From contig JAHJTB010000089.1 in assembly GCA_018830135.1 (NCBI GenBank), positions 1 through 49,994 on the forward strand: a stretch of 49,994 nt of DNA. The letters run 5' to 3'. Origin of the DNA: Pseudomonadota bacterium. Its GTDB lineage: Bacteria; Desulfobacterota; Desulfarculia; Adiutricales; JAGVGV01. The position numbers were made by a program, and so were the translations under genes. Below are positions 2,326 to 33,393 of this stretch, in pieces (position 1 is the first letter of the stretch; every line of letters begins with the position of its first letter). The notes under the pieces are model-generated. The model did no database searches. It saw only the letters and a list, made by a program, of their open reading frames with translations, and was not told the DNA's origin.

Positions 2326-4266
2326 TTAAAACAGTTCCACGTTGTCTCCCAGGTCCTCATCGCCCGATTCCTCGGCTTCCTCCTCCGGCTTGGGCGCCGG
2401 TTCGCTGAACAGCTCAACCCCGTCGCCCAAATCCGTTTCCTCCTCCGTCGTGGCGGCCGGGTCCCCGAAAAGCTCGATCCCGTCGCCTAAATCCGCTTCC
2501 CCGGCCGACGTCTCCGGGGCAGGGGCATCGAACAGCTCGAAGCCGTCGTCAAGTATGTCGTCCCCTTGAGGCGTTGGGTCCGCCGGGCCCCCGCCGGCCG
2601 CCTTTCGGTCCTGACTGGTCAGGACGGCCTGATGGACCGCCCTTTCACTTTCCATGGTGTACCGGCTGGCCAGGGCCTCGAGGCCTTCTCCGGAGCCGGG
2701 TTCACCGGAGGACGGGTCCGCCGGGGTCTGCTCCAGAATCTCGCCCAGGCCGACCAGGGCCTCGCCGATCCGGGTTTCCACGCGGCGGTGCACGGTCACG
2801 CCGCCCAAGAGGTCCCGGATGTCCTCGGTCAGGGCCCGGCTCTTGCCCTCCACCTCGTTCATCATAACCAGCGAACGGCTGTTGGCCTGTCGGACGGCAT
2901 CGAGGACCTCGGTCAGTTCACCGACCGCCGCTTCGACTTCGGCCGTCCTGGATCGTTCCTTTCGCAACTGGCTCCTGGCTTCTTCGATGTCCCGGTGGAC
3001 GGCGGCCAGGGTGTCGGTGTACTGCCTGGCCTCGCCGGCGACATCCCGTATGGCCTCGGCCAGGATGTCCAGGGTCATCCCCTGCCGGCCGATCTTGGCG
3101 GCCCGGATCGTGGCGTTCAAGGCGATGAACTTGATCGAGTAGCCGCTGCCCTGAACGCCGGCTAAAAACTCGTTCATCACCTCGATAGTTTCGGCGACTG
3201 AAGCGACGGCGGTTTCGATTTCACGCCCGGCCGAGTCGTGCCGCCGCAAAGCGGCCGCCGCCTCGAGCATGTCACGCTCCAGCCGGTCCAGAAAGGACTC
3301 CCCCGCCCCCTCCTTTTGATTGACGAACTCCCTGGTCTCCCGACATCCCTGGTCCAGGCTCTCGGCCACCCGGTCCAGGTTTTTGAATATATTTCTCACG
3401 GCCGCGTTGAAATCGTCCCCGGCCTGACGAAGCAGGGCCGTCTGAAGCTCGCAGGCGCCCCGGAAGCCTTGGTTGTTTTCGTCTTCGACCAGGTCGGTCA
3501 AGGCGTCCTTGACGTGCTCCAGACGCTGGCGGGTGATGTCGTGGAACTGCATGGACATGACCACTTCGCCCACGCTTCGGCTGATCTGTTCCGAGCGTTC
3601 GCTTACACACCGGATCGCCTCGGATGAAGCGCTCTGTTTGGCCAACAGGTCGGACAGACTGGAAGCAACCAGGTCCAGGACCGCGCGGCCCTGACCGCTC
3701 TGTTTTTCATGGAAGTCTCGCAGCTTGGATAAAAGAGACTGGACCTGCCGGTCCAGGCTGTCCAGACTGTCCAGCACGTCGGACGCGCTTTGTCCGATCT
3801 GGGCGGACTGTCTGGCCACCTCGTCGGAAAGGAATCTGAAGCTCTGGCCGCCGCCTCTGAGGTGGGCGCTTTCGATCCGGGTCAGCGTGCCCAGGATATT
3901 CAGGGTCCGGGCCACCAGGCCGAAACGGCCGAATACGCGCCGGGAACGCTCCAGGCAACTCCGGACGCTTTCCAGCGCGGCCAGATCGCCTTGCAGGACC
4001 TCTTCCGAGGCCTTCATATAGCCGGTCATCCGGCCGGCCAGTTCCCGCAGGTCTTCCACCGTCCGGCCCATGGATTCGCCGGACAGCAGGCCGGCCAGGG
4101 ACTTCCCGGTCTCCGTCATGTCCGCGGAACGGCGGTAGACATCCTGGAGGCTCTCGCCCAGGGCCAGAAAATCATCCTCGGTGGAGACGGTCAATGTCCC
4201 GATCTCTTCCGCGATCCGCTTGAGCCGGTCTTCCCGGCTGGCCATCGGTCGGTCAAGCAAACTCAT
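2326..4266 (-). CDS. Soluble methyl-accepting-chemotaxis-like protein with repetitive acidic ELF C-terminal tail
   Basis: Long helical/coiled-coil protein with MCP-like segment (GYSIKFIALNATIRAAKIGRQGMTLDILAEAIRDVAGEA); no evident TM helix; in chemotaxis operon. Confidence 0.75.
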   Translation of the reverse strand: MSLLDRPMASREDRLKRIAEEIGTLTVSTEDDFLALGESLQDVYRRSADMTETGKSLAGLLSGESMGRTVEDLRELAGRMTGYMKASEEVLQGDLAALESVRSCLERSRRVFGRFGLVARTLNILGTLTRIESAHLRGGGQSFRFLSDEVARQSAQIGQSASDVLDSLDSLDRQVQSLLSKLRDFHEKQSGQGRAVLDLVASSLSDLLAKQSASSEAIRCVSERSEQISRSVGEVVMSMQFHDITRQRLEHVKDALTDLVEDENNQGFRGACELQTALLRQAGDDFNAAVRNIFKNLDRVAESLDQGCRETREFVNQKEGAGESFLDRLERDMLEAAAALRRHDSAGREIETAVASVAETIEVMNEFLAGVQGSGYSIKFIALNATIRAAKIGRQGMTLDILAEAIRDVAGEARQYTDTLAAVHRDIEEARSQLRKERSRTAEVEAAVGELTEVLDAVRQANSRSLVMMNEVEGKSRALTEDIRDLLGGVTVHRRVETRIGEALVGLGEILEQTPADPSSGEPGSGEGLEALASRYTMESERAVHQAVLTSQDRKAAGGGPADPTPQGDDILDDGFELFDAPAPETSAGEADLGDGIELFGDPAATTEEETDLGDGVELFSEPAPKPEEEAEESGDEDLGDNVELF

Positions 4267-7800: not shown

Positions 7801-8592
7801 GCGGCTGGTCACGTCCCGCAACACGGCCATGGTGGCCGGACGCCCCTGGTATTCAATCAGGTTCGACCGGCCCTCCATGATCATTCGCCGGCCGTCCCGG
7901 TTGATGAGGGGCACCTCGAACTGTTTCATGCCCGTATCGCCCCGCATGCGAGACTGGTGCATCTCGATCATCAACTCCCGGGCCTCCGGGGCCACCACCT
8001 CGGTGAAATGCCGATCCGCGGTGTCCGCGGTGGAATAACCAAGCATTTTTTCATAGGTCGGATTGCGGTACACGGTCTTACCGTCCTGGATGACCACGAT
8101 GGCGTCGTTCATGGATTCGGCCAGGGTCCGATACATGCCCTCGCTCTCCTTGAGGGCCTCCTCCATTTTTCGTCTTTCCGCGTCCACCTCGGCCACGTAC
8201 AAGGCCATCTCGATCGTGACCTTGAGGTCCCGGTCCTGGAAGGGCTTGAGCACGTAGCCGAAGGGCAGGGCCAGTCTGGCCTGCTTCAGCCTTTCCTCCT
8301 CGGCGTACGCGGTCACGAAAACAACCGGGACGTTCCAGCGGGATCGAAAAACTACCGCGGCGTTGATCCCGTCCATCTCACCGGCCAGAACGATGTCCAT
8401 CAGCACCAGATCGGGCGGGTCCTGTTCCGCCAGGTCCAGCGCCTCCTCGGCCGAAGCCGCGGTGGCCCGGACCGAATACCCGAACTCCCTGAGCCTGGCC
8501 TCCAGGTCCGAAGCAATGATAATCTCGTCTTCAACAATCAGGATTCGAGGTGATTTCAAAGCGGGTGCCCCCTTCTCGCTGACCCTCCGCAT
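4852..8592 (-). CDS. Hybrid sensor protein: N-terminal receiver, multiple PAS/PAC domains, HisKA_2-type dimerisation/phosphoacceptor region, degenerate HATPase
   Basis: N-terminal PRILIVEDEIIIASDLEARL..VLMDIVL receiver; repeated PAS/PAC segments (DGRYLWFETLGRILFDEAGREQG, VGFRGVALDVTERRRTEDALRESE); REVHHRVKNNMQVISSLLNLQ; C-terminal HATPase-like fold. Confidence 0.88.
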   Translation of the reverse strand: MRRVSEKGAPALKSPRILIVEDEIIIASDLEARLREFGYSVRATAASAEEALDLAEQDPPDLVLMDIVLAGEMDGINAAVVFRSRWNVPVVFVTAYAEEERLKQARLALPFGYVLKPFQDRDLKVTIEMALYVAEVDAERRKMEEALKESEGMYRTLAESMNDAIVVIQDGKTVYRNPTYEKMLGYSTADTADRHFTEVVAPEARELMIEMHQSRMRGDTGMKQFEVPLINRDGRRMIMEGRSNLIEYQGRPATMAVLRDVTSRLQAEAELKEKEEKYRTILESMQEGYFEIDLAGNLLFFNQAFSEIVGYPHEELLNMNYRDYVPAETADAVYLEYNRVFRTGKPIQALEYDSRTKDGRKTILQVSISLIRDRDDRPVGFRGVALDVTERRRTEDALRESERKYRTLTDSIDEGYFEVDLKGSYTFISPWFHELAKRPKEEIIGANYRQYMTPESSETIFNAFNRIYTTGQPAKKVQVDAVLPDGSLVYHELSASLVRDSAGQPIGFRGIARDVTDRRKAQDALREKEALYELVTQYTADMIAMCDQEANFIFVSPSYQTILGYDEGELIGRPIVALVHPDDLLELARIIEERQVSLEPQPVEAQYRMRHKDGRYLWFETLGRILFDEAGREQGAVFSTREITARRLTDEALKESEARLRRLVETINDGVIHIDAQGRFQQVNEHLCRMLGYTREELIGHPGLKIVDKSYQDMQRREFRKRREGRSGSYEIVFIRKDGTRLQVHLSGIPLFDANGAFQGTFGVCSEVEAALVETGSGDENRLARKCLDVVEVILLALDREGRVTLINRKGNQVLGYEGRELIGRNWFDTCLPEDVREKAGSEFKGLLEAEVQELGFVESRIRGKDGRERLIRWRNALLRDDAGRVTGTLSSGEDITGRERAREALRASDEKFRVLVENAYEIICVLQDGAVKYINPSGSRLSGYTADEDLARPFIEFVHPDDRELILERYRKRLSGEDVPQNYETRIVHKKGHMIWVQVNGVPIEWEGNPAALYFISDVTERRQTREKLETALKEKEVLLREVHHRVKNNMQVISSLLNLQAARARSKGDLDFIQEAQSRIAAMSLVHESLYDAETMVAIDLGTYLQKLVAALSGLYQTGRRGIAFQVEISGEPRVIIDQAVPCGLVVNELITHSIQHAFPQGGPGRIRVEARVHGNSLELTVTGDGAGLSDQPASGRRSGLELDLVEALVQGRLAGRIEMVRSGGLGFKVVMPLQKIKPMINSG

Positions 8593-9176: not shown

Positions 9177-10853
9177 ATGGAGGAACGGATCTGGCACAAG
9201 TCGTACGACAAGGAAGTCCCCCCCAGCCTGGACTACGAAAAACGAACCATCCCGGAAGCCCTGGCCAAAACGGCCCGCGATCATCCGGACCTGACGGCCC
9301 TGATCATGATGGGAAAAAAGATCACCTACCGGGAGCTTGACGATCTGGTCAACCGCTTTGCCGCGGCCCTGATGGACCTGGGCCTGGGGAAAGGCGTCAA
9401 GGTCGCCCTGTCCATGCCCAACATCCCTCAGATGGTCATCGCCGCCCAGGCCGTCTTTCGGTCCGGCGGGGTCGTGGTCATGTGCAACCCGCTCTACACG
9501 GAAAGGGAACTCGAGCATCAGCTCAATGATTCGGAAAGCAAGATCGCCGTGGTCATGGACCTTTTGGTCCCCCGAATTCAGAAACTCAAGGCCAGCACCG
9601 GAATCGGACCCATCATCGCCTGCCATATCCGTGATTATCTGCCCTTCCCCCTCAAGCAGCTCTTCCCCTTTGTCAAGAAGGAGATGCATCGCAAGACCGT
9701 CCCGGGGGAGGGCGTTTACGACTTTCTGGACCTGGTGGGCAAATACCCGGCCCAGCCTCCCCGTGTGGATGTGGGCTGGGAGGACCTGTCCACGCTCCTT
9801 TATACCGGCGGAACCACCGGCGTATCCAAAGGGGTCATGCTCAGCCACGCCAACATCAGCATCAACGTCCAGCAGCTCCGGGCCTGGACTCATGACGTGA
9901 TCGAGGGCAAGGAACGCCTGCTGGCCAACTTTCCCTTCTTTCACTCGGCCGGCTTCACCGCGCTGATGAACCAGTGCATCTTCCGGGCCTTCACCGACAT
10001 TCTGGTGCCCCGGCCCGAGCCGCAGGTGGTCCTGGAAATGGTCCGCAAGTACAAGCCGACCTTTTTCCCGGCCGTGCCGACCACGTACGTCGGCATCCTC
10101 AATCACCCGGACTTTGCCAAGACGGACTTCAGCCAGGTCAAAGGGTGCGTTTCCGGGGCCGCGCCGCTGGCCCTGGAAACCATTCGCGAATGGGAGGAAA
10201 AGGTCGGAACGACCATTGTCGAGGTTTACGGTCTGACCGAATGCTCACCCCTCTCCCACGCCAATCCCTGGCGGGGCCAGACCAAGGTGGGCAGCGTGGG
10301 CCTGCCTATCTCGGACACGGACTGCCGCATCGTGGACCTGGATGCGGGTGAGACCGACATGCCCCAGGGCCAGCCCGGAGAGATACTCCTCAAGGGCCCC
10401 CAGGTGACCCGGGGTTACTATCAGAAACCCGAGGAGACGGCCGAGTCCTTCCGGGACGGCTGGTTTTATACCGGCGACATCGGATACATGGACGAGCAGG
10501 GCTATCTGTTTATCGTGGACCGAAAGAAGGACATGATCATCGCCGGCGGGTACAACATATATCCCCGTGATATCGATGAGGTTTTGTTCGAGCATCCCAA
10601 GATTCTCGAGGCCTGCGCCGTGGGCGTACCGGACCCGTACCGAGGGGAAACGGTCAAGGCCTTTGTCGTGACCCGACCGGGCGAAACCTTGACCGAGGCC
10701 GAGGTTATCGGGTATTGTCGAGAAAAACTGGCCGCGTACAAGGCCCCCAAGCTGGTCGAGTTCGTGGACGAGCTGCCCAAAAGCATGATCGGCAAAGTCC
10801 TGCGGCGGGAACTCCGGGAACGGGAGATGAATAAATCCCAAGGGGCCGAATAG
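9177..10853 (+). CDS. Long-chain fatty-acid--CoA ligase (AMP-binding)
   Basis: LLYTGGTTGVSKGVMLSHAN, VYGLTECSP, GWFYTGDIGYMDEQGYLFIVDRKKDMIIAGGYNIYP; GGAG RBS before ATG. Confidence 0.93.
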   Translation: MEERIWHKSYDKEVPPSLDYEKRTIPEALAKTARDHPDLTALIMMGKKITYRELDDLVNRFAAALMDLGLGKGVKVALSMPNIPQMVIAAQAVFRSGGVVVMCNPLYTERELEHQLNDSESKIAVVMDLLVPRIQKLKASTGIGPIIACHIRDYLPFPLKQLFPFVKKEMHRKTVPGEGVYDFLDLVGKYPAQPPRVDVGWEDLSTLLYTGGTTGVSKGVMLSHANISINVQQLRAWTHDVIEGKERLLANFPFFHSAGFTALMNQCIFRAFTDILVPRPEPQVVLEMVRKYKPTFFPAVPTTYVGILNHPDFAKTDFSQVKGCVSGAAPLALETIREWEEKVGTTIVEVYGLTECSPLSHANPWRGQTKVGSVGLPISDTDCRIVDLDAGETDMPQGQPGEILLKGPQVTRGYYQKPEETAESFRDGWFYTGDIGYMDEQGYLFIVDRKKDMIIAGGYNIYPRDIDEVLFEHPKILEACAVGVPDPYRGETVKAFVVTRPGETLTEAEVIGYCREKLAAYKAPKLVEFVDELPKSMIGKVLRRELREREMNKSQGAE

Positions 10854-10944
10854 GTTGGAGACCGGTCGAGGAGCGATGCAACGCTCGGTACCGGCCTGAG
10901 TATCCATTAAACCCGGCCGATGTCGGCCGAAACCAGGTGATCGG

Positions 10945-11262
10945 GTGTCGTCAAATCGGGAAAAAACCTATCGCGAAGAAGCGCTGAAAATCCTGCCCTG
11001 GGTATGCGCGCACTGCGGACGGGAATTCAGCGGCAAAAAGCTACGTGAACTCACCGTCCACCACAAGGACCACAACCACCTCAACAACCCCCGGGACGGC
11101 AGCAACTGGGAGTTGTTGTGCATATACTGCCACGACAACGAGCACGCCCGCGAGGAAGTGGCCGAGGCATACGACAAGACCGCCTCGGGCGGCGCGCAAA
11201 AAACGTTTTCCACCCACCAGCCCTTCGCCGGCCTCGAGAGCCTGTTGAAGGGCAAAAAGTAG
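10945..11262 (+). CDS. HNH-nuclease-like protein, YajD family
   Basis: CAHCGREFSGKKLRELTVHHKDHNHLNNPRDGSNWELLCIYCHDNEH: HNH motif with paired CxxC; GTG start. Confidence 0.85.
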   Translation: MSSNREKTYREEALKILPWVCAHCGREFSGKKLRELTVHHKDHNHLNNPRDGSNWELLCIYCHDNEHAREEVAEAYDKTASGGAQKTFSTHQPFAGLESLLKGKK

Positions 11263-11277
11263 CCGGACCGGGGAAAG

Positions 11278-11721
11278 CTAACTCTGGGTCGGAGGGATCA
11301 GCAGCACCGGCACCGGCGATTTCTTGACCACTTCCTCGGCCACGCTGCCGAAAATGATCTTTTCCAGGCCCCGACGACCGTGAGTGCCCATGATGATCAT
11401 ATCCGGGCGCTCGCTTCTGGCCATTTTCAGGATTTCCTCGGAAGGATAGCCCGTGACCACTTTCGAGGAGACGAGGGGGTCTCGGAAGTTGATTTCCATG
11501 AACTCCCGCAGGCGCATTTCGCCCTGTTTGGCCACCTCCTCCTCAAAATTATTGATGTAGGGCAGGGGCACGCCCATGCCGGCGTAATGCTCGAAGGCCC
11601 GGGCCACGAACAGGACCAGAACCCGGGCTTGGTGTTTGACCGCCATCTCCTTGACCCACGGCACCAGCACGCGGGAGACCTCGCTCAAATCAACGGGGAA
11701 AAGGATATATTGTACGGGCAT
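11278..11721 (-). CDS. Universal stress protein, UspA family
   Basis: MPVQYILFPVDLSEVSRVLVPWVKEMA...MIIMGTHGRRGLEKIIFGSVAEEVVKKSPVPVLLI; G-2x-G-9x-G(S/T) ATP-binding pattern. Confidence 0.93.
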   Translation of the reverse strand: MPVQYILFPVDLSEVSRVLVPWVKEMAVKHQARVLVLFVARAFEHYAGMGVPLPYINNFEEEVAKQGEMRLREFMEINFRDPLVSSKVVTGYPSEEILKMARSERPDMIIMGTHGRRGLEKIIFGSVAEEVVKKSPVPVLLIPPTQS

Positions 11722-11745
11722 GTCCCAACTCTCCTTTCATGACGT

Positions 11746-24172: not shown

Positions 24173-24259
24173 GCCCGGATGGCGGAATAGGTAGACGCAA
24201 GAGACTTAAAATCTCTCGGCCTGAAGGCCGTGCCGGTTCGATCCCGGCTCCGGGCACCA
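24173..24259 (+). tRNA. tRNA-Leu (anticodon UAA), CCA encoded
   Basis: GCCCGGATGGCGGAATAGGTAGACGCAAGAGACTTAAAATCTCTCGGCCTGAAGGCCGTGCCGGTTCGATCCCGGCTCCGGGCACCA: acceptor stem, anticodon loop CTTAAAA, long variable arm, T arm GGTTCGATCC. Confidence 0.95.
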
Positions 24260-24322
24260 ATATAAATAAAAAACTCAGGTTGACCAGATACGAGGGGGAA
24301 GTGATCCGCCGGGTGGCTGGAA

Positions 24323-24365
24323 GTCCCGGAAGCTCAGAGACTGAAGGCTTTTCGGGACTTTCTAA
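24323..24365 (+). terminator. Putative terminator downstream of tRNA-Leu
   Basis: GTCCCGGAAG..(loop)..TTTTCGGGAC stem followed by TTTCTAATTTTG. Confidence 0.4.
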
Positions 24366-24552
24366 TTTTGTTGCAGGGGAATTCAGCTTTTTTTTACGGG
24401 AAATATCGGAAATTTGAAAAGAGAACTCATTTTGAATTCATATGTAGGAAATTCGTTTTACTATTGGAACATAGATTTCAACTGTCTTTAGTCATTGACA
24501 AACAGCATATTTTTACATTAAAATAGTTGAATTTAAAACAGCTGGTTTTCTT

Positions 24553-25371
24553 TTGGTGTATCGTAGTTTATACTCGAATCATAGATTACTATCAGACTCT
24601 GTCAAGAAAATGGTAAATCCTGCTACCGAAACAAGTTACGAGTTGGTTATTGAAAATATCTTAGCAAATGCAATATTCATGAAAGACAGACAAATGAAGC
24701 ACAGAGTTATTTTTAAATTAAAAAACTCATTTCCAGCTTATAGGGGATCACCGCTGCTTTTTATTGCAGAATTTTTAGCAAAAATTCTTCAGATTCTTGG
24801 CCCCTTAGGTTTAATACGATTGTATGGAAAAAAGAAGAAAGAACCTGTTCCAATGGCATGGGTTGATATCTGGGTTTTAGGGTTGTTAATCGTTGAGCTT
24901 ATTTCACTTATTCTTCTTGATTTTGATGTATCTTGGCTCCGTTATCTTTGCTTCCTTTTTGGCATATATGGATTAGTAGAAGTATTGGCGGCTACATCAA
25001 GAGATATAATATTGGCACCAATTATTCATAAAGGTAGCAATGGTGGATATATCCAAATACGGTCACGTCGAAGATGGTTAATCCTAACTGTATTTAACCT
25101 AGCACAAATAATAGTCTGTTTCGGTATTTTAATTTATTATTACAAGGATCAATTTACTGGGAATATTTCCTCGTGGGTAACTGCATTGTATATAAGTTTT
25201 GTTTCATTTACTACTCTTGGATATGGAGATTTTTCTCCAAAATGTGATACAACGCGTTGGATAGTCATTGCCGAATTATCCTATTTCCTATTTTTTTTAA
25301 TCATTAAAATTTCCACTGCGGTTTCCGTCATAAGGGTCAAGAAAAAAGGCCTCCATCGACTCACAGATTAA
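24553..25371 (+). CDS. Two-pore-domain-type K+ channel-like membrane protein (AT-rich, accessory)
   Basis: YISFVSFTTLGYGDFSPKCDTTRW: TxGYGD selectivity filter flanked by hydrophobic helices; true start may be ATG at 24610. Confidence 0.8.
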   Translation: MVYRSLYSNHRLLSDSVKKMVNPATETSYELVIENILANAIFMKDRQMKHRVIFKLKNSFPAYRGSPLLFIAEFLAKILQILGPLGLIRLYGKKKKEPVPMAWVDIWVLGLLIVELISLILLDFDVSWLRYLCFLFGIYGLVEVLAATSRDIILAPIIHKGSNGGYIQIRSRRRWLILTVFNLAQIIVCFGILIYYYKDQFTGNISSWVTALYISFVSFTTLGYGDFSPKCDTTRWIVIAELSYFLFFLIIKISTAVSVIRVKKKGLHRLTD

Positions 25372-25380
25372 ATCATCATT

Positions 25381-25560
25381 GCTCCCCTGAAACTTTTATG
25401 ACGACGGCGGCGTTGACCAGTTTGAGGAAGGCCAGGGCCAGGCCGGCCATGAACAGGGCCGAGAGCAGGCCGATCCGCTCATAGACCACGCCGTGCCGAT
25501 TCTGAAAGAGAAAGATGAGGATGACCTGAAGGGCCATGACCGTCCCGCCGGTCAGAGTCA
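25381..25560 (-). pseudogene. Truncated and internally deleted 3' fragment of the spermidine-synthase-like gene at 28308-30614
   Basis: About 120 bp (25441-25560) reads identical to about 28711-28830; then jumps to the gene's 3' terminus (LAFLKLVNAAVVIKVSGEQ*), with the join in GGCCAGGGCCAGG repeats. Confidence 0.85.
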
Positions 25561-25832
25561 GTACAGAAGCAGTAATGGGACACCCAAATATTGGCCGATA
25601 AACATAATCCCCCAGGATGTGCCTCGGCTTCCTTTTCCTTGAATACAACTAGGTTAGAAGTGTGCGGAGTTTTTGGCTTGTCCATGTCACGGAGAGCCGA
25701 AAACACCTTGAGCAGACTGTCCGCAGGCTTACCTCAGAATCCGCTTGTTTTTTCCTCTCCCATTTATTATTTTAGGATAATGATGAAACGTAAATTAACC
25801 GAAGCCCTTATTTTAGCTTCGAGCAGGTCGTC

Positions 25833-27020
25833 ATGAATAGAAAGCCGCAGGGGCGTTATGTGACCATATCCACGGTGGGCGAGAAGGCCAAGGCTTTCAT
25901 CCCGGACCCGCTCCCGCCCCATCCGCCCATTGATTGGTCTTCGGGTTTACGGGCCAAGTTCGACCAGGCGCACTTGGCTCTCGGCCGGCTGGACAGCGTT
26001 TCCGCCCTCCTGCCGGACACCTTGCTGTTCATCTATATGTATATCCGGAAGGAAGCGGTTCTTTCATCCATGATCGAGGGCACGCAGTCCTCCATCTCCG
26101 ATCTCCTGCTCTTCGAACTGAACCAGGAACCAGGCGTTCCACTGGAAGACGTCCGGGAGATAAGCAACTACGTGGCCGCCATGAACCACGGCCTTTCCCG
26201 ACTCAATGGAGGATTTCCGCTCTCCCTGCGCCTGCTCAGGGAAATCCATGGGGTCCTGTTGACAAAAGGCCGTGGCAGCGCTCAAGCCCCGGGGGAGTTC
26301 CGCCACAGCCAAAACTGGATCGGCGGCACCCGGCCGGGCAACTCCGCCTTTGTCCCGCCGCCGCCTGATCGGGTCCAGGAATGCATGGGGCAGCTCGAAA
26401 TGTTTTTGCATGACCGGCCGGAACAAACGCCGGTTCTGATTAAAGCCGCTCTGGCCCATGTCCAGTTCGAGACCATCCACCCCTTTCTTGACGGTAACGG
26501 CCGCCTGGGTCGCCTGCTTATTACCCTGCTGTTATGTGAGCAAAAGGTCCTGGCTCAGCCCATGCTCTATCTCAGCCTCTTTTTCAAGACCCACCGCCGG
26601 CACTACTACGATCTGCTCAACATCGTGCGCCAGACGGGCGACTGGGAATCCTGGCTCGACTTTTTCGCCGAAGCGGTCATTGCGACCGCCTCCCAGGCCG
26701 TGGATACCACCCGGCAGATACTTGCCCTGTTTGATGACGACCGAGACAAGATCAGCGGGCTCGGACGCGCGGCCGCATCCGCCCTTCAGGTCCATCGGGC
26801 CTTCCTGCAACATCCCATCGCTACCTCGGGTCGGCTGACCGGCCATACCGGCTTGACCCCGGCCACGGTCAACAAATGTCTGGCCAACCTGGAACGGCTC
26901 GGAATCGTACGCGAACTGACTGAACAGAAACGCAACCGCCTCTTCAGCTATACCCGGTACATCGAGATCATGAACCAGGGCACCGAACTGCCGGGAGACA
27001 TCGTTCAAGACAGGGTATAG
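25833..27020 (+). CDS. Fic-domain protein (class II-like, N-terminal inhibitory motif)
   Basis: HPFLDGNGRLGRLL matches HPFx(D/E)GNGRxxR; SSMIEGT matches (S/T)xxxE(G/N); C-terminal winged-helix-like region. Confidence 0.93.
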   Translation: MNRKPQGRYVTISTVGEKAKAFIPDPLPPHPPIDWSSGLRAKFDQAHLALGRLDSVSALLPDTLLFIYMYIRKEAVLSSMIEGTQSSISDLLLFELNQEPGVPLEDVREISNYVAAMNHGLSRLNGGFPLSLRLLREIHGVLLTKGRGSAQAPGEFRHSQNWIGGTRPGNSAFVPPPPDRVQECMGQLEMFLHDRPEQTPVLIKAALAHVQFETIHPFLDGNGRLGRLLITLLLCEQKVLAQPMLYLSLFFKTHRRHYYDLLNIVRQTGDWESWLDFFAEAVIATASQAVDTTRQILALFDDDRDKISGLGRAAASALQVHRAFLQHPIATSGRLTGHTGLTPATVNKCLANLERLGIVRELTEQKRNRLFSYTRYIEIMNQGTELPGDIVQDRV

Positions 27021-27106
27021 GCGGGGGGGCAGGACTTGAAGTCGGCCGATCTTCGGCGAAAAAAAGGCTGCATGTGCTACTGCCAGCGCCCGTTTCCGTC
27101 TTCCTT

Positions 27107-27480
27107 CATCACTCCCCGGAAATTCGGATAACCGCGGCGGCGTTGAAGAGTTTGAAGAAGGCCAGGGCCAGGGCGGTCAGGCCCAGGACCGGGGCCAGGA
27201 CCACGCCGGTGACCAGGGCGCCGGCGTGGTCGGCGGATTCCAGGGCGCTCAGGGCCCGGGTCACGGTGGGACGGGCGCGGTCCTTGAGATACAGGGCGAA
27301 GAGCAAAGCGAACTCCAGCCCAGCCAACAGTCCGGCCAAACCGGCCAGAAGCAGTTCCAGGGCGGGCAGGACCTTATCGGTCCGGACCCCGGCGGCGACG
27401 TTCTGCCGTCCGATCAGTCCGCCCAGGGCCAGGCCGGCCATAAACAGGGCCGAGAGCAGGCCGATGCGTTCAAAAATCCG
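27107..27480 (-). pseudogene. Second, more diverged 3' fragment of the spermidine-synthase-like gene
   Basis: FERIGLLSALFMAGLALGGLIGRQNVAAGVRTDKVLPALELLLAGLAGLLAGLEFALLFALYLKDRARPTVTRALSALESADHAGALVTGVVLAPVLGLTALALAFFKLFNAAAVIRISGE* parallels the full gene with short deletions. Confidence 0.85.
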
Positions 27481-27486
27481 GGGACA

Positions 27487-27519
27487 CATTACTGATTTAT
27501 TAGGATCACGGCACCGGAG
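27487..27519 (-). pseudogene. Tiny remnant of a further 3' end of the same gene family
   Basis: CATTACTGATTTATTAGGATCACGGCACCGGAG vs CATTACTGGTTCACCCGGATCACGGCGGCGGCG at 28306-28338 (25/33 by eye); encodes SGAVILINQ* vs NAAAVIRVNQ*. Confidence 0.5.
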
Positions 27520-27613
27520 TAAATTGCGACCTCCCATTTCAGTCGAGAATCTCCTTTTCCGGCCATCGCCCATGCCTGGAAATTCGCTGACTGTCTCGCT
27601 TCAACCAAGCAGG

Positions 27614-27859
27614 TCATTTCCAGAATTTGTCCGGATCAATTTTGAACCGGCGCAATATGGCCAAAATGACCGGGATGCTGATCTCCGTGCCAGGGCCGTG
27701 ATCCTTGACCGGGTACTGGGGGCCTTTATTGGAATTCGGCTCAATCGGTCTGAGCAGGATGCGTTCGGAGTCCTTGCCCCTCCTGGGCAAACTCACAATT
27801 CCGTGAGGTTTGATTCTCTTAAGAAGTTCTTGCAGTTTCAGAGGCCGTTTATTCGACAC
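27614..27859 (-). CDS. HicA-like toxin
   Basis: 81 aa basic protein: KLQELLKRIKPHGIVSLPRRGKDSERILLRP...EISIPVILAILRRFKIDPDKFWK; overlaps the upstream HicB-like ORF. Confidence 0.6.
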   Translation of the reverse strand: MSNKRPLKLQELLKRIKPHGIVSLPRRGKDSERILLRPIEPNSNKGPQYPVKDHGPGTEISIPVILAILRRFKIDPDKFWK

Positions 27860-28199
27860 GACAGATGGATTGAGCGTGGCAGGAGTTGGCTATAATCCAG
27901 GAAGGCACCGCTTCGCCATGAAAATGGGATTCCAGCGGGACCCGGCGTTCCACCTGTTCTCTGCATTGAAAGAACTCTTTCCAGGCGTCTGCGGGAGCGG
28001 GATGGTAAAGGTTCTCGAGGTTGTCGTTGTTGAATGCATAGGCCACCTGGGCGCAAATCAGGTCCAGCATGTCCTTTTCCACGTCTTCGACGGTGGCGGC
28101 GGTGGCGACGATATCCAACTCCAGGCAGTGGGCCAGCCAAGCGTATTCCATCTCTTTAACGAGAATGCTGAAATGCATGGCTTTGTCTGGAGCATCCAT
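27849..28199 (-). CDS. HicB-like antitoxin / small partner protein
   Basis: MHFSILVKEMEYAWLAHCLELDIVATAATVEDVEKDMLDLICAQVAYAF resembles the HicB N-terminal fold; 11-nt overlap with HicA-like ORF. Confidence 0.55.
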   Translation of the reverse strand: MDAPDKAMHFSILVKEMEYAWLAHCLELDIVATAATVEDVEKDMLDLICAQVAYAFNNDNLENLYHPAPADAWKEFFQCREQVERRVPLESHFHGEAVPSWIIANSCHAQSICRVE

Positions 28200-28307
28200 G
28201 GTTACCCTCCTCTTCCACGCCCAAGGCGATATTTAATTTATTGACTCACCGTTCCGCTTTGTCAAGATTTATCGGTAACGCCGTTCCATTGGAATTCCGG
28301 AAACGCA

Positions 28308-30614
28308 TTACTGGTTCACCCGGATCACGGCGGCGGCGTTGAAGAGTTTGAGGAAGGCCAGGGCCAGGGCGGTCAGGCCCAGGCCCAGGACCGGGGCCAG
28401 GACCACGCCGGTGACCAGGGCGCCGACCAGGGCCCCGGCGTGGTCGGCGGCCTCGAGGCCGGCCAGGGCCCGGGTCACGGAGGGCCGGGAGCGGTCCTTG
28501 AGATACAGGGCGAACAGGAGGGCGAACTCCAGGCCGGCCAGGAGTCCGGCCAGTCCGACCAGGGGCAGAATCACGTCCGGGATGAGGTCCCAGGCGTTGA
28601 GGGCGGCCAGTCCGGCCAGCCCGGCCAGGAGCAGTTCCAGGACCGGGAGGACCTTTCGGGTCCGGACCCCGGCGGCCACGCTCTGGCGGCCGATCAGGCC
28701 GCCCAGGGCCAGGCCGGCCATGAACAGGGCCGAGAGCAGGCCGATCCGCTCATAGACCACGCCGTGCCGATTCTGAAAGAGAAAGATGAGGATGACCTGA
28801 AGGGCCATGACCGTCCCGCCGGTCAGAGTCATGGTCCAGGCCGAGATTCGGGCCGGGGCGGGCCGAATCACTATGATGACCAGGGGCAGGCAGAGCAGTC
28901 CCAGGGCCAGGGGGCCCCAGCGGCGAACTTCGAGGGCCTGTCTCAGCAAGGCCCGGGTCCAGGGCCGTCCGGTCATCTTCTCCCACCAGACGAGCCGCAG
29001 ATAGTAGCTCAGAGGTACGGCGTCGGTGTTGAGGACGGTTTCACGGTCCGATTCCAGACGGGCTTTGAGGTATTCGACGGCGGTGGGCTGGAAGAACTGG
29101 TAGAAGGAGCGCGGTTTGAAGTAAGGCGAGGTGAAACCGAGGCGTTCATAGCGGCTGCCCAGTTTGTCCGGATCGCCGCTGACCGGACCGGACTCGGGGC
29201 CGGCGAAAAAGAAGTGCCGGTCTCCTGGCGTGACCACGACCACGGGAAACACGGTTTTCAACGTGCGGTACAGGGAGAGGCCGTAGGAGCGCATCTCCCG
29301 GCCCCAGTAGTTGTCCGCGCCGGCAATGGACGTGACCAGGACGCCTTGGGGCCGGAGCCGACTCGCGGCCTGTTTGAAGAAGTCCTGGGTGTAAAGCCGG
29401 TTGATCCGGGCGTTGTCCGGGTCCGGGGCCATGATCGCGATCAGGTCGAAGGACGGCCCCTCGGCCCGGGCCAGGTAGCGGCGCAGGTCGTCGTGAACGA
29501 TCCGCAGACGGGGGTCGTCCAGGTCCCGGGCCTGATCGGGAGTGAGATGGCGGGCCACGAGGCCGGTTTCGTCCGGGTCGAGGGCCACGTAGACCAGTTC
29601 CCGGACACCGAACTTCAGCATTTCGTGGATGAATGCGCCCGGCCCCGGACCGGCCAGCAGGACCCGGTCGAAACGGCGGGCCTGGGTCAGGAAGAGCAGG
29701 GTCAGGACCTGGTATTCCGAGGGATCGGGCCAGGAGGCGATGAAGCTCTGGTCCCCGAACAGGGACATTTCACCGCCCCGCCGGGCCAGGGCCAGGTGCT
29801 GGTAGGGCGTGTCCCTGGCGGCCAACAGTTCGTAATTCGGGTGGGCCCGGGCGAAACGGACCCGGTCGGCATGGGCGTCCAGTTCGGCGGCCAGCCCGCT
29901 GAAATGCAGGGTCAGCCCGGCGGCCAGGACCAGGGCGGCGGAAACGGCCCTGGCCGTGGCCCGGCCGGGCAGGGCCACGGCCAGGGCCAGCAGGACCAAG
30001 CCGGCCATGAAGGCCAGGGCCTGGATTGATCCGACCCGGCCGGCCATGAAAAAGGTGTACAGGAGCAGACCCAGGCAGGACCCGGCGGACTCGACCCAGA
30101 AGATTGAACCGCCCAGGCCGGAACGTTCCGCTTCCCGGCCCTGGAACCGCTCCCGCCAGTACGATCCGGCCAGGACGAAGAGCCCGCCCACGAACAGGGA
30201 GCCCGGCGCGGTCAGGGCCGCGGTCCAGCCCAGGGCCAGTTCGAAGGGCGCGGCCTCGCCCGGGGCCAGGCCGGTCAGGCCGGGGATGAGATAGGACATC
30301 GCCAGCAGCCCGCCCAGGCAGGCCAGCCAGAGCCACGGGGCCAGCCAGAGACAGAACTTGAGCCGGCGGCCACTGAGGTTCAGGGCGCCCGCGACCTGGG
30401 CCCCCAGGAATACGCCGGCCAGCCATCCGGCCAGGACCAGGGCGATGATTATTTCGCTGCCGTAGAAGGCAACCAGGAGCTGGCGGAGAAAGACCACCTG
30501 GGCCACCAGGGCCAGGGCCCCGAAGGAGCCGACCAGCAGCCCGAAGGCCGCCAGATTGAATATCCCCCCGGCAGGCCGGGGAGGATATTCGACATGTAAG
30601 GAAGAGAGAGCCAT
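28308..30614 (-). CDS. Membrane-fused spermidine-synthase-like protein (N- and C-terminal TM bundles around an aminopropyltransferase/Rossmann domain)
   Basis: DRVLLAGPGPGAFIHEMLKFGVRELVYVALDPDETGLVARHL...DDPRLRIVHDDLRRYL...YTQDFFKQAASRLRPQGVLVTSIAG; hydrophobic segments on both sides. Confidence 0.82.
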   Translation of the reverse strand: MALSSLHVEYPPRPAGGIFNLAAFGLLVGSFGALALVAQVVFLRQLLVAFYGSEIIIALVLAGWLAGVFLGAQVAGALNLSGRRLKFCLWLAPWLWLACLGGLLAMSYLIPGLTGLAPGEAAPFELALGWTAALTAPGSLFVGGLFVLAGSYWRERFQGREAERSGLGGSIFWVESAGSCLGLLLYTFFMAGRVGSIQALAFMAGLVLLALAVALPGRATARAVSAALVLAAGLTLHFSGLAAELDAHADRVRFARAHPNYELLAARDTPYQHLALARRGGEMSLFGDQSFIASWPDPSEYQVLTLLFLTQARRFDRVLLAGPGPGAFIHEMLKFGVRELVYVALDPDETGLVARHLTPDQARDLDDPRLRIVHDDLRRYLARAEGPSFDLIAIMAPDPDNARINRLYTQDFFKQAASRLRPQGVLVTSIAGADNYWGREMRSYGLSLYRTLKTVFPVVVVTPGDRHFFFAGPESGPVSGDPDKLGSRYERLGFTSPYFKPRSFYQFFQPTAVEYLKARLESDRETVLNTDAVPLSYYLRLVWWEKMTGRPWTRALLRQALEVRRWGPLALGLLCLPLVIIVIRPAPARISAWTMTLTGGTVMALQVILIFLFQNRHGVVYERIGLLSALFMAGLALGGLIGRQSVAAGVRTRKVLPVLELLLAGLAGLAALNAWDLIPDVILPLVGLAGLLAGLEFALLFALYLKDRSRPSVTRALAGLEAADHAGALVGALVTGVVLAPVLGLGLTALALAFLKLFNAAAVIRVNQ

Positions 30615-30675
30615 ATCAGTTGGCGGGCTACCCCCTCGGCAGGCCTCGGGGGATGCGCCCGCACTGCATGTTCAA
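30555..30675 (+). repeat. Dispersed two-hairpin repeat, copy B
   Basis: ATTGAATAT-CC-CCCCGGCAGGCCGGGG-AGG-ATATTCGACATGTAAGGAAG..CCATATCAGTTGGCGGGCTACCCCC..GGGGGATGCGCCCGC..TTCAA; shares core with copy A, stems differ but still pair. Confidence 0.8.
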
Positions 30676-31832
30676 GACCAGACTCCCGGAATGGCGGCCC
30701 GGCAGCGGGGGCAGCGGCCCGCGTCCATATGATTTTCCACGGCCCACATGCCGGTGCGCTGAATGAGCAGACGGCCGCACCGGGGGCAGAAGGTGTCGCC
30801 GCCGGGATGGCCGGGCACGTTGCCCAGGTAGACGTAGCGCAGTCCTTCGGCCTTGGCCGCCTCGCAGCAGCGTTCCAGGTCGGCCACCGGGGTCGGCGGG
30901 ACGTTCTGGAGTTTGTACATGGGCCGGAAGCGGGTGAAATGAATGGGCACGTCCGGCCCCAGATGGGTCTTGATCCAGCGGGCCATGGCCGTGACATCCG
31001 CCTCCCGGTCGTTGGCAGCGGGTATGACCAGGTTGACGATTTCGACCCAGACGCCGAGGCCGACCAGGTTTTCCAGGGTCTCGAGGACGGGCTTGAGCCG
31101 GCCGTGGCAGTAGTCGCGGTAGAAATCGTCGGTAAAGGCCTTGAGATCGACCTTGTAGGCCTTGAGGAAGGGAACCAGTTTCCGTTGCGCTTCCAGGGAT
31201 GTGAAGCCGTTGGAGACCACGGTGCACCTCAACCCGGCCTCATGGCCCAGCCGGGCGGTTTCGTGCATGAACTCGTAAAAGACCGTGGGCTCGTTGTAGG
31301 TGAAGGCCAGGTTGGGGATGTCGTTTTTCAGGGCCAGGGCGACCAGGGTTTGGGGCTCGATATAGCGGGCTTCGACCTTTTCGGGCCGGAACTGGGACAA
31401 CTGCCAGTTCTGACAGAATTTGCAGCTCAGGTTGCAGCCGGCCGTGGACAGGGACAGAACCATGCTGCCGGGGACCACGTGGTAGAAGGGCTTTTTTTCG
31501 ATGGGGTCGTTGTTCAGGGCCGTCACCCGGCCGTAAACCAGGGTCATGTATTCGCCCTGGCGGTTCATGCGAACCCCGCAGGCGCCCCGGCCGCCGGGCG
31601 CGACCTCGCACTGGCGGGGGCAGAGGCGGCAGCGGACGATTCCGCCTTCGAGCCGGTCGTAAAACATGGCCGGACGGACGAAGCGTTCGTCTTCAATGGA
31701 AAGCCCGGCCCCCGGCGGGGCGGCGCCGTCCGGAGCCTGGTCCTGGGCCCGGGCCGTGCCCAAAGGGCATACCCCCAGTCCGGCCGCGGCAACGGCCAGG
31801 CAGGTGGAACGCAGAAAAGTCCGTCGGTTCAT
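30672..31832 (-). CDS. amrS: AmmeMemoRadiSam system radical SAM enzyme with twin-arginine-like leader
   Basis: MNRRTFLRSTCLAVAAAGLGVCPLGTARA leader; CRLCPRQCEVAPGGRGACGVR; CNLSCKFCQNW; FTYNEPTVFYEF; C-terminal CPRCGR..CPRC. Confidence 0.88.
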   Translation of the reverse strand: MNRRTFLRSTCLAVAAAGLGVCPLGTARAQDQAPDGAAPPGAGLSIEDERFVRPAMFYDRLEGGIVRCRLCPRQCEVAPGGRGACGVRMNRQGEYMTLVYGRVTALNNDPIEKKPFYHVVPGSMVLSLSTAGCNLSCKFCQNWQLSQFRPEKVEARYIEPQTLVALALKNDIPNLAFTYNEPTVFYEFMHETARLGHEAGLRCTVVSNGFTSLEAQRKLVPFLKAYKVDLKAFTDDFYRDYCHGRLKPVLETLENLVGLGVWVEIVNLVIPAANDREADVTAMARWIKTHLGPDVPIHFTRFRPMYKLQNVPPTPVADLERCCEAAKAEGLRYVYLGNVPGHPGGDTFCPRCGRLLIQRTGMWAVENHMDAGRCPRCRAAIPGVWS

Positions 31833-31839
31833 GTCGGCC

Positions 31840-33393
31840 CTACTTCCCGGCCCCGGCCTTTTCATCCTCGCCAAAAACCTGGGCGCTGAACCGGTAGAGG
31901 TCCACGTTCGCCTGCCGCCAGGTCCCGGCGGGCAGGCCGGCCTTGACGCAGGTCTGGTCGAGGAACTTTTCCCGATCCCAGCCGTTCTCGACGGCCACCT
32001 GGGGCAGCAGCAGCCCCTGACGCTCCCCCTGGGCGATCATGAGTCCGTCCCGACCGACCTGGATGTCCTCGACCCGGTCGACCAGTTCGAACGGGGTCAG
32101 TACCGAAATTTCCAGGCTGACGCCTTCCCGGTATTCGGAGCGGGTCAGAGGGGAAAAGCGCGGGTCTCGAAAGGCGGCCGATACGGCCATGTAGGGTACG
32201 ACCTCGGACACGGGATGGTTGGCGGCCAGGTGGCCGATACACCCTCTCAGGCCGTCCTTCATCTTGATGGTCACAAAGGCCCCGCCCAGGGAATTCAGGG
32301 CCGGGGAGAGCCCCTTGGGGAAGGTGAAATCCCTGCCGTCAAAGGCGCAGTCCAGGGCGCGCCGGGCCAGGCCCAACAACTGGGCTTTCTCCGCCGGACC
32401 GAGTCGAGGCGGGGCCGGGTCCGCCTTGTTCCCTTTCGATTTCGGGTCGGCTCCGTTCCCTTCGACCAAGGCCGCGGCGACGTAGCCGACGACATGGTCG
32501 TTGTCGCCGGTGACCGTACCGGAATGGTCGTATTTCAGAATCTCGGCCCGGTTGGCTCCCAGGGACCGGGCGGCCTCCATGACCGCGATGAGGGGGCCTT
32601 CGCCGCAGGCCTCGGACCGTCCGTTGAGCATGTCGAGATGGAGTCCCCGGCCGTCAAGGCCCCGGACCCGTTCGATGACCCGGGCGTCCAGAAGCCTGGC
32701 CTCCGGGGCCGGGTGTTCATGGGACAGATCGGTGCTGGCCAGCAGCAGCGCATTTCGGCCCCGCATGGCTTCAGCCAGGGCCCGGCCCAGGGCGACCGAG
32801 GAGCCGTAGCGCCGGTTGCCCACCAGCAGAGGCACGATCCTGGCCTGGGGCAGCACGGTCTGGATGAAGGGAAGCTGTATCTCCAGGCAGTGTTCGCTCT
32901 GGTGGATTTCGGGCCGGCCGGTCACGAGCGGGCCGGCGGCCTTCTGGATGCGGTCGGCCAGGTCGCGGTCCAGGGACACCCGTCCCAGGGGAGTTTCATA
33001 GTCCTGGTAGTTGAGGGAGGCGCCTGGGAAGGCGGCCCGGTGGCTGGGACCGATCAGGACCACGGTTTCGAAGGTCCGGTTTTTCAACAGGTTGTAGGCA
33101 AAGGCGGCCACGGGCCCGGAATAGCGGTGTCCGGCATGGGGGACGACCAGGGCCTTCAGCCTTCCTTGGACCTTGGGAACGGCGGCCCGGTCGAGAAAGG
33201 CCCGGACCTGGCTTTTCAGTTCGCCGGCCTGGGCCGGGTACCACTGTCCGGCCAGGGCCGAAGGTCTGAGTCCGACTTCGGTGGCCCGGGCCGAAGCGAG
33301 CGGCAGGGCCAGGAAAAGAATCAGGATGGCGATCTGGAGCCGGACCGGGCGGCCCGGTCCGGGAGAGCTCGGGATGCGGCGGTTCCGGGACAC
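31840..33393 (-). CDS. AmmeMemoRadiSam Memo (AmrB) - AMMECR1 (AmrA) fusion with signal peptide
   Basis: RPVRLQIAILILFLALPLASARA signal; VVPHAGHRYSGPVAAFAY..LIGPSHR..STDLSHEH (Memo); GLRGCIGHLAANHPVSEVVPYMAVSAAFRDPRFSPL (AMMECR1). Confidence 0.9.
   Translation of the reverse strand: MSRNRRIPSSPGPGRPVRLQIAILILFLALPLASARATEVGLRPSALAGQWYPAQAGELKSQVRAFLDRAAVPKVQGRLKALVVPHAGHRYSGPVAAFAYNLLKNRTFETVVLIGPSHRAAFPGASLNYQDYETPLGRVSLDRDLADRIQKAAGPLVTGRPEIHQSEHCLEIQLPFIQTVLPQARIVPLLVGNRRYGSSVALGRALAEAMRGRNALLLASTDLSHEHPAPEARLLDARVIERVRGLDGRGLHLDMLNGRSEACGEGPLIAVMEAARSLGANRAEILKYDHSGTVTGDNDHVVGYVAAALVEGNGADPKSKGNKADPAPPRLGPAEKAQLLGLARRALDCAFDGRDFTFPKGLSPALNSLGGAFVTIKMKDGLRGCIGHLAANHPVSEVVPYMAVSAAFRDPRFSPLTRSEYREGVSLEISVLTPFELVDRVEDIQVGRDGLMIAQGERQGLLLPQVAVENGWDREKFLDQTCVKAGLPAGTWRQANVDLYRFSAQVFGEDEKAGAGK

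Follow-up and report, generated by a model that had tools for sequence, protein, structure and literature searches.

Accessory genes between truncated copies of a gene's 3′ region: possible scars of serial insertion with long target duplication

The window (the whole stretch of DNA analysed, 49,994 nt) spans a complete contig of a 6.8-Mb genome that is assembled in 562 contigs with 6% contamination. Its minus strand carries an intact gene of 768 aa, hereafter P1, whose product has a spermidine-synthase-like core between N- and C-terminal hydrophobic segments, with two NCBIfam models, PRK03612 and MFS_SpdSyn, both scoring below cut-off. The closest ortholog is 48% identical (genome G003) and the other orthologs are 24–33% identical. 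Directly upstream of P1 are AmmeMemoRadiSam-type genes (radical SAM, then MEMO1/AMMECR1-like; window 30672-33393), and MEMO- or AMMECR1-like neighbours also stand beside P1-family genes in G003 and G005 (L028, L009). Downstream of P1, on the same strand, are three copies of the P1 3′ region (R, B, and A), which are separated by a HicBA-like gene pair and a Fic gene. The features of this locus, by coordinate in the window, are:

24173..24259, plus strand: tRNA-Leu(taa), lying beyond A with the ion-channel-like gene
24553..25371, plus strand: ion-channel-like gene, outside the 129-nt repeat (Pfam Ion_trans_2, 7e-10)
25376..25443, minus strand: fragment A, 3′ tail (SGEQ*), joined to the 5′ part across a 345-nt in-frame deletion at CCTGGCCCTGG
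25432..25560, minus strand: fragment A, 5′ part, a perfect 129-nt copy of P1 codons 595-638 (100% identical to 28703-28831)
25833..27020, plus strand: Fic-family cargo gene (SoFic-like), 395 aa (Pfam Fic_N 1e-25, Fic 2e-20; PADLOC SoFic 3e-118)
27106..27477, minus strand: fragment B, P1 3′ copy from codon ~622 with an SGE* tail (83-88% nucleotide identity in blocks)
27474..27520, minus strand: remnant R, the last ~30 coding nt, the stop, and ~17 nt past the stop, with a P1-type end (NQ*)
27614..27859, minus strand: HicA-like cargo gene, 81 aa (adjacent homologue with 48-65% identity at at least seven other loci)
27849..28199, minus strand: HicB-like cargo gene, 116 aa (homologues in 8 other genomes, 25-57% identity)
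28308..30614, minus strand: P1, intact parent gene, 768 aa (Pfam Spermine_synth, E 3e-8)
28703..28831, minus strand: P1 copy of the perfect 129-nt direct repeat, codons 595-638 (exact match, offset 3271)

The copies, their order, their orientation, their identities, and the perfect repeat are read directly from the DNA. An earlier note on this DNA had placed three fragments here in the orientation of the parent, and all three proved real: within the genome, B and A match P1 at the protein level (E 6.5e-43 and 3e-20, respectively), and R is 74% identical to P1 across 47 nt, a score reached by 0 of 3000 dinucleotide shuffles. The same note described the fragments as 3′ ends of P1, which holds for B and R but not for A, since A (25376-25560) is a mosaic, its two parts meeting at a junction that is an 11-nt repeat, rather than a plain 3′ end. 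Together, P1 and A form a perfect 129-nt direct repeat that brackets a 3.1-kb block of unrelated genes, and the only other exact direct repeat of at least 40 nt in the contig is a 46-nt block in B. The copies start at different points (codon 595 in A, ~622 in B, and ~757 in R), and in A and B the homology to P1 gives out ahead of the stop codon, whereas in R it continues 17 nt past it. R and the P1 end are 47-nt direct repeats that span the stop codon and bracket the HicAB-like pair. The tails are of two kinds: A and B end in ...SGE(Q), and P1 and R in ...NQ. R (end 27474) and B (start 27477) abut.

Fragment B has diverged from its parent in ways that can partly be polarised. It carries three in-frame deletions (66, 12, and 6 nt), each at direct repeats, and relatives keep the parental length at these sites, so the losses belong to B; the few polarisable replacements between P1 and B also fall on the side of B. 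Over 119 codons, the two differ by 25 synonymous and 12 nonsynonymous changes (dN/dS 0.25 by NG86 and 0.08 by YN00; differences by codon position 12:6:25), a substitution pattern that fits a former functional copy and a decaying fragment beside a constrained parent alike and does not separate them. Along P1 itself, GC content shows no clear change, and its 3′ part therefore bears no independent mark of being incoming.

The proposal, made from the sequence, that the genes between and beyond the copies are accessory is supported. Homologues of the HicAB-like genes lie side by side at seven or more loci from other families of the phylum, with the HicB-like homologues elsewhere mostly adjoining a HicA-like gene, and their distribution is patchy (among 297 genomes of the phylum, 9 have the HicB-like gene, the present genome included). 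They thus form a two-gene module conserved in unrelated genomes, with neither a HicA nor a HicB profile match: Pfam, NCBIfam, and PADLOC gave no relevant match to the pair, and one unrelated PADLOC match had an E of 0.04. The Fic gene, positioned between B and A, belongs to a family that is widespread on plasmids (hundreds), and the ion-channel gene stands apart in composition (GC 34% vs 62%). This low-GC channel gene is directly downstream of tRNA-Leu(taa) (window 24173-25371), which is a typical insertion place, here without a repeated tRNA end: the last 12-20 nt of the tRNA have no second copy in the window and no significant match in the genome.

We recognised no recombinase or mobile-element gene between the repeats or around the locus, and none is apparent in the window's list of open reading frames, which was inspected as a list, with profile scans covering some of the reading frames. 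The sequences between the fragments have no real copies elsewhere in the genome. The earlier note proposed a search for the same 3′ end beside unrelated cargo at other places; no further copy of the P1 3′ end occurs anywhere in the genome. None of the HicAB-like pairs of other genomes (n = 7) is bracketed by gene-end copies, and thus the pattern does not follow from the cargo as such. Around these other pairs, the two significant flanking repeats (L186:1178-1244 and 3106-3173; L190:1282-1318 and 2342-2378) are hairpin-like non-coding repeats, not gene ends.

Relatives close enough for a comparison of the locus were found neither in the order (41 genomes) nor in the class (63) nor among wider genome and viral contigs, and the wider genome-contig scans returned one distant Chloroflexi match only. 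At nine P1-family loci of distant relatives, the gene is present as a single copy with neither fragments nor tandem copies nearby, which makes the layout specific to this lineage, as far as seen.

Within the genome, the layout is not confined to P1. We searched gene ends for nearby copies in a sample of 1.38 Mb (~20% of the genome), with reversed sequence as a control, in which no match scored as high as 30. Once full tandem paralogues, dispersed repeats, and cases at contig edges were excluded, four further clear loci were left (C247, C381, L125, and C562). At C247 (L080:9812-12058), an OsmC gene is followed by a radical-SAM gene, which begins at the OsmC stop and has 46% GC vs ~66% for host genes, and an 81-nt copy of the 3′ end of OsmC (90%) lies beyond it. 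At C381:29192-32696 (L078:9192-12696), a nitroreductase-like gene is followed by sequence that includes TetR and DUF4405 genes (47% GC vs ~66% for host genes), beyond which its 3′ end recurs as a 126-nt copy (79%). The layout is mirrored at L125 (813-1625) and C562 (L086:3808-10484), where 5′ fragments lie upstream of intact genes of 824 aa and 421 aa, at 0.5 kb and 6.4 kb from the intact copy, respectively. Because the layout recurs at the unrelated OsmC and nitroreductase genes, the pattern is not specific to P1. Throughout the sample and the window, the pieces that form high-identity scars (≥75%) lie downstream of the intact copy when they derive from a 3′ end and upstream of it when they derive from a 5′ end, a rule that rests on ~5 loci. 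Such geometry would be automatic under insertion with target duplication, because gene-breaking inserts would be lost, and a tandem duplication that starts or stops within a gene would give the same geometry.

The best explanation, which we hold with middling confidence, is that accessory DNA inserted serially at the 3′ part of P1, that long target duplications of variable length accompanied the insertions, and that decay followed. Foreign DNA would have entered this part of the gene several times, with recombination duplicating a target segment whose size varied (47 to ~370 nt at this locus), such that each insertion would have kept P1 intact and left a 5′-truncated copy of its 3′ region beyond the insert, and the copies would then have decayed through substitutions and deletions at short repeats. 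The youngest event would be marked by the perfect 129-nt repeat of P1 and A, which encloses the stretch between the P1 3′ end and a point upstream of Fic, and would look like an insertion of ~3.27 kb made by one crossover (Campbell type) or with long target duplication. Here, the incoming DNA may have supplied the 3′ end now on P1, while A would be the displaced older end, shortened later, and R and B would be older scars, left near the HicAB-like pair and the Fic gene by previous events. The 3′-only polarity would need no special enzyme, because insertions breaking P1 would have been lost. We infer from the arrangement that insertion made the duplications, that the events had this order, and that the mechanism was of RecA type or used microhomology. 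Target-derived direct repeats on the order of 100 bp do flank the inserts (129 nt for P1 and A, 47 nt for R and P1, 81 nt at OsmC, and 126 nt at the nitroreductase gene), no transposase was recognised around the locus, and no short target duplication explains the layout. The exact abutment of R and B needs an extra step under this account, and gene conversion acting later on what was left of an old paralogue could also have produced the 129-nt identity. Overall, the locus looks like insertion with target duplication and not like a special hotspot built by P1.

Decay of a tandem paralogue array stays a serious rival, if a somewhat unlikely one, because the two tail types and the R–B abutment fit it well: the NQ and SGE tails look like two paralogue lineages, and the abutment resembles a tandem junction. 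By this account, P1 was duplicated in tandem, the additional copies were truncated from the 5′ side, and accessory genes inserted into them as they decayed, with a recent duplication, or gene conversion, behind the 129-nt identity. The genome does have full tandem paralogues at other places, and B, with mostly third-position differences and only in-frame indels, resembles a once-functional copy; however, selection on P1 itself can explain part of the third-position bias, while the deletions and the few replacements assigned to B fit a decaying fragment. Against the array, only the 3′ part was kept in all three copies, and the nine loci of (distant) relatives are without tandem copies. These loci, and the repeat that brackets a block of unrelated genes, sustain the earlier view that more than simple decay of full-length tandem paralogues took place. 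An artefact of assembly or strain mixing in part of fragment A or its junctions is improbable. An exact 129-nt repeat is near the largest k-mer of common assemblers, and the fragmentation and contamination of the assembly would favour such an error, but artefacts would not have diverged as far as B and R have, and the alternative path requires a separate 3.27-kb circle and a deleted gene, with no other contig having such junctions.

Site-specific integration appears highly improbable; under it, the P1 3′ end would be the target of an integrase and would be restored by every arriving element, in the manner of islands at tRNA genes. The 47-nt direct repeats of R and the P1 end around the HicAB-like pair do span the stop codon, as such a process might leave them, and cargo also sits at the 3′ ends of two other genes in the genome. 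Against this, the repeats hold HicAB-like and Fic genes only, with no integrase-type gene recognised, the copies share no common crossover point or core and end differently, the repeats are 74-100% identical with very different lengths, the genome has no further copy of the P1 3′ end, and the tRNA-Leu end is unrepeated. A dedicated integrase-like att site at this 3′ end, as once suggested, is thus not borne out. What carries over into serial insertion with target duplication, as a conditional part of it, is the recurrent rebuilding of the 3′ end or use of its homology, while the analogy to tRNA integrases is dropped.

Insertions of restriction-modification genes with long, variable target duplications, on the order of 100 bp, have been described from strain comparisons (PMC1643837, PMC3874152, PMC3031569), including insertion with long target duplication by Nobusato et al. 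2000, as described in PMC1643837 and PMC3874152. The present case resembles these insertions and has their repeat features, with accessory genes between ~100-bp target-derived direct repeats of variable length and without a transposase. Unlike the known cases, which concern restriction-modification genes and have an empty site in a sister strain, the layout here is read from one genome, its cargo is HicAB-like and Fic, and its copies are serial and decayed. Homology-facilitated illegitimate recombination, in which homology anchors one end and the other end joins at 3-10 bp of microhomology, usually replacing ~1 kb of resident DNA (PMC3240628), is a possible route; it too places foreign DNA next to a resident gene, and would here imply an anchored donor end and a microhomology junction. 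Integrase islands at gene 3′ ends likewise have a rebuilt 3′ end and a displaced 3′ copy at the far end, but at P1 no integrase was recognised, the copies are long and unequal with no common core, and the site is not used again elsewhere in the genome. Partial tandem duplication with paralogue decay shares the truncated same-strand copies beside an intact gene and differs in that unrelated genes here lie between the copies, with a composition unlike that of the host gene in the best examples.

A broader proposition, which we regard as quite unlikely, is that accessory genes in this lineage land recurrently, and independently of any enzyme, at the 3′ ends of ordinary protein genes. Each arriving piece of DNA would carry a substitute 3′ end, so that the host gene survives and a dated scar stays behind, and one locus would record three successive events. 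If the reading of serial insertion is right, truncated 3′ copies of host genes would be readable scars that mark and order recombinase-free insertions of accessory or toxin-antitoxin-like genes, which are otherwise invisible to island finders relying on integrases and tRNA repeats. Since the layout is found at several unrelated genes of one genome, a genome-wide census is possible.

Several candidates from the sampled sequence were not retained. L145 was dropped as a 5′ fragment, as its shared stretch is a recurring sequence (PKLQLGNP in translation), and two further cases, L146 and C502, were left out because they are paralogues truncated at contig ends, as was C220, a dispersed repeat. The short PKLQLGNP-like sequence, which looks like a dispersed palindromic repeat, recurs at L145:4487-4654 and 8168-8335 and in C247 near 9900, beside several genes and the OsmC fragment. 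Separately, a two-gene block is repeated ~7 kb apart at C95:2548-5955 and 10453-11724 (L071) with 85-90% identity, and its second copy is internally fused or deleted.
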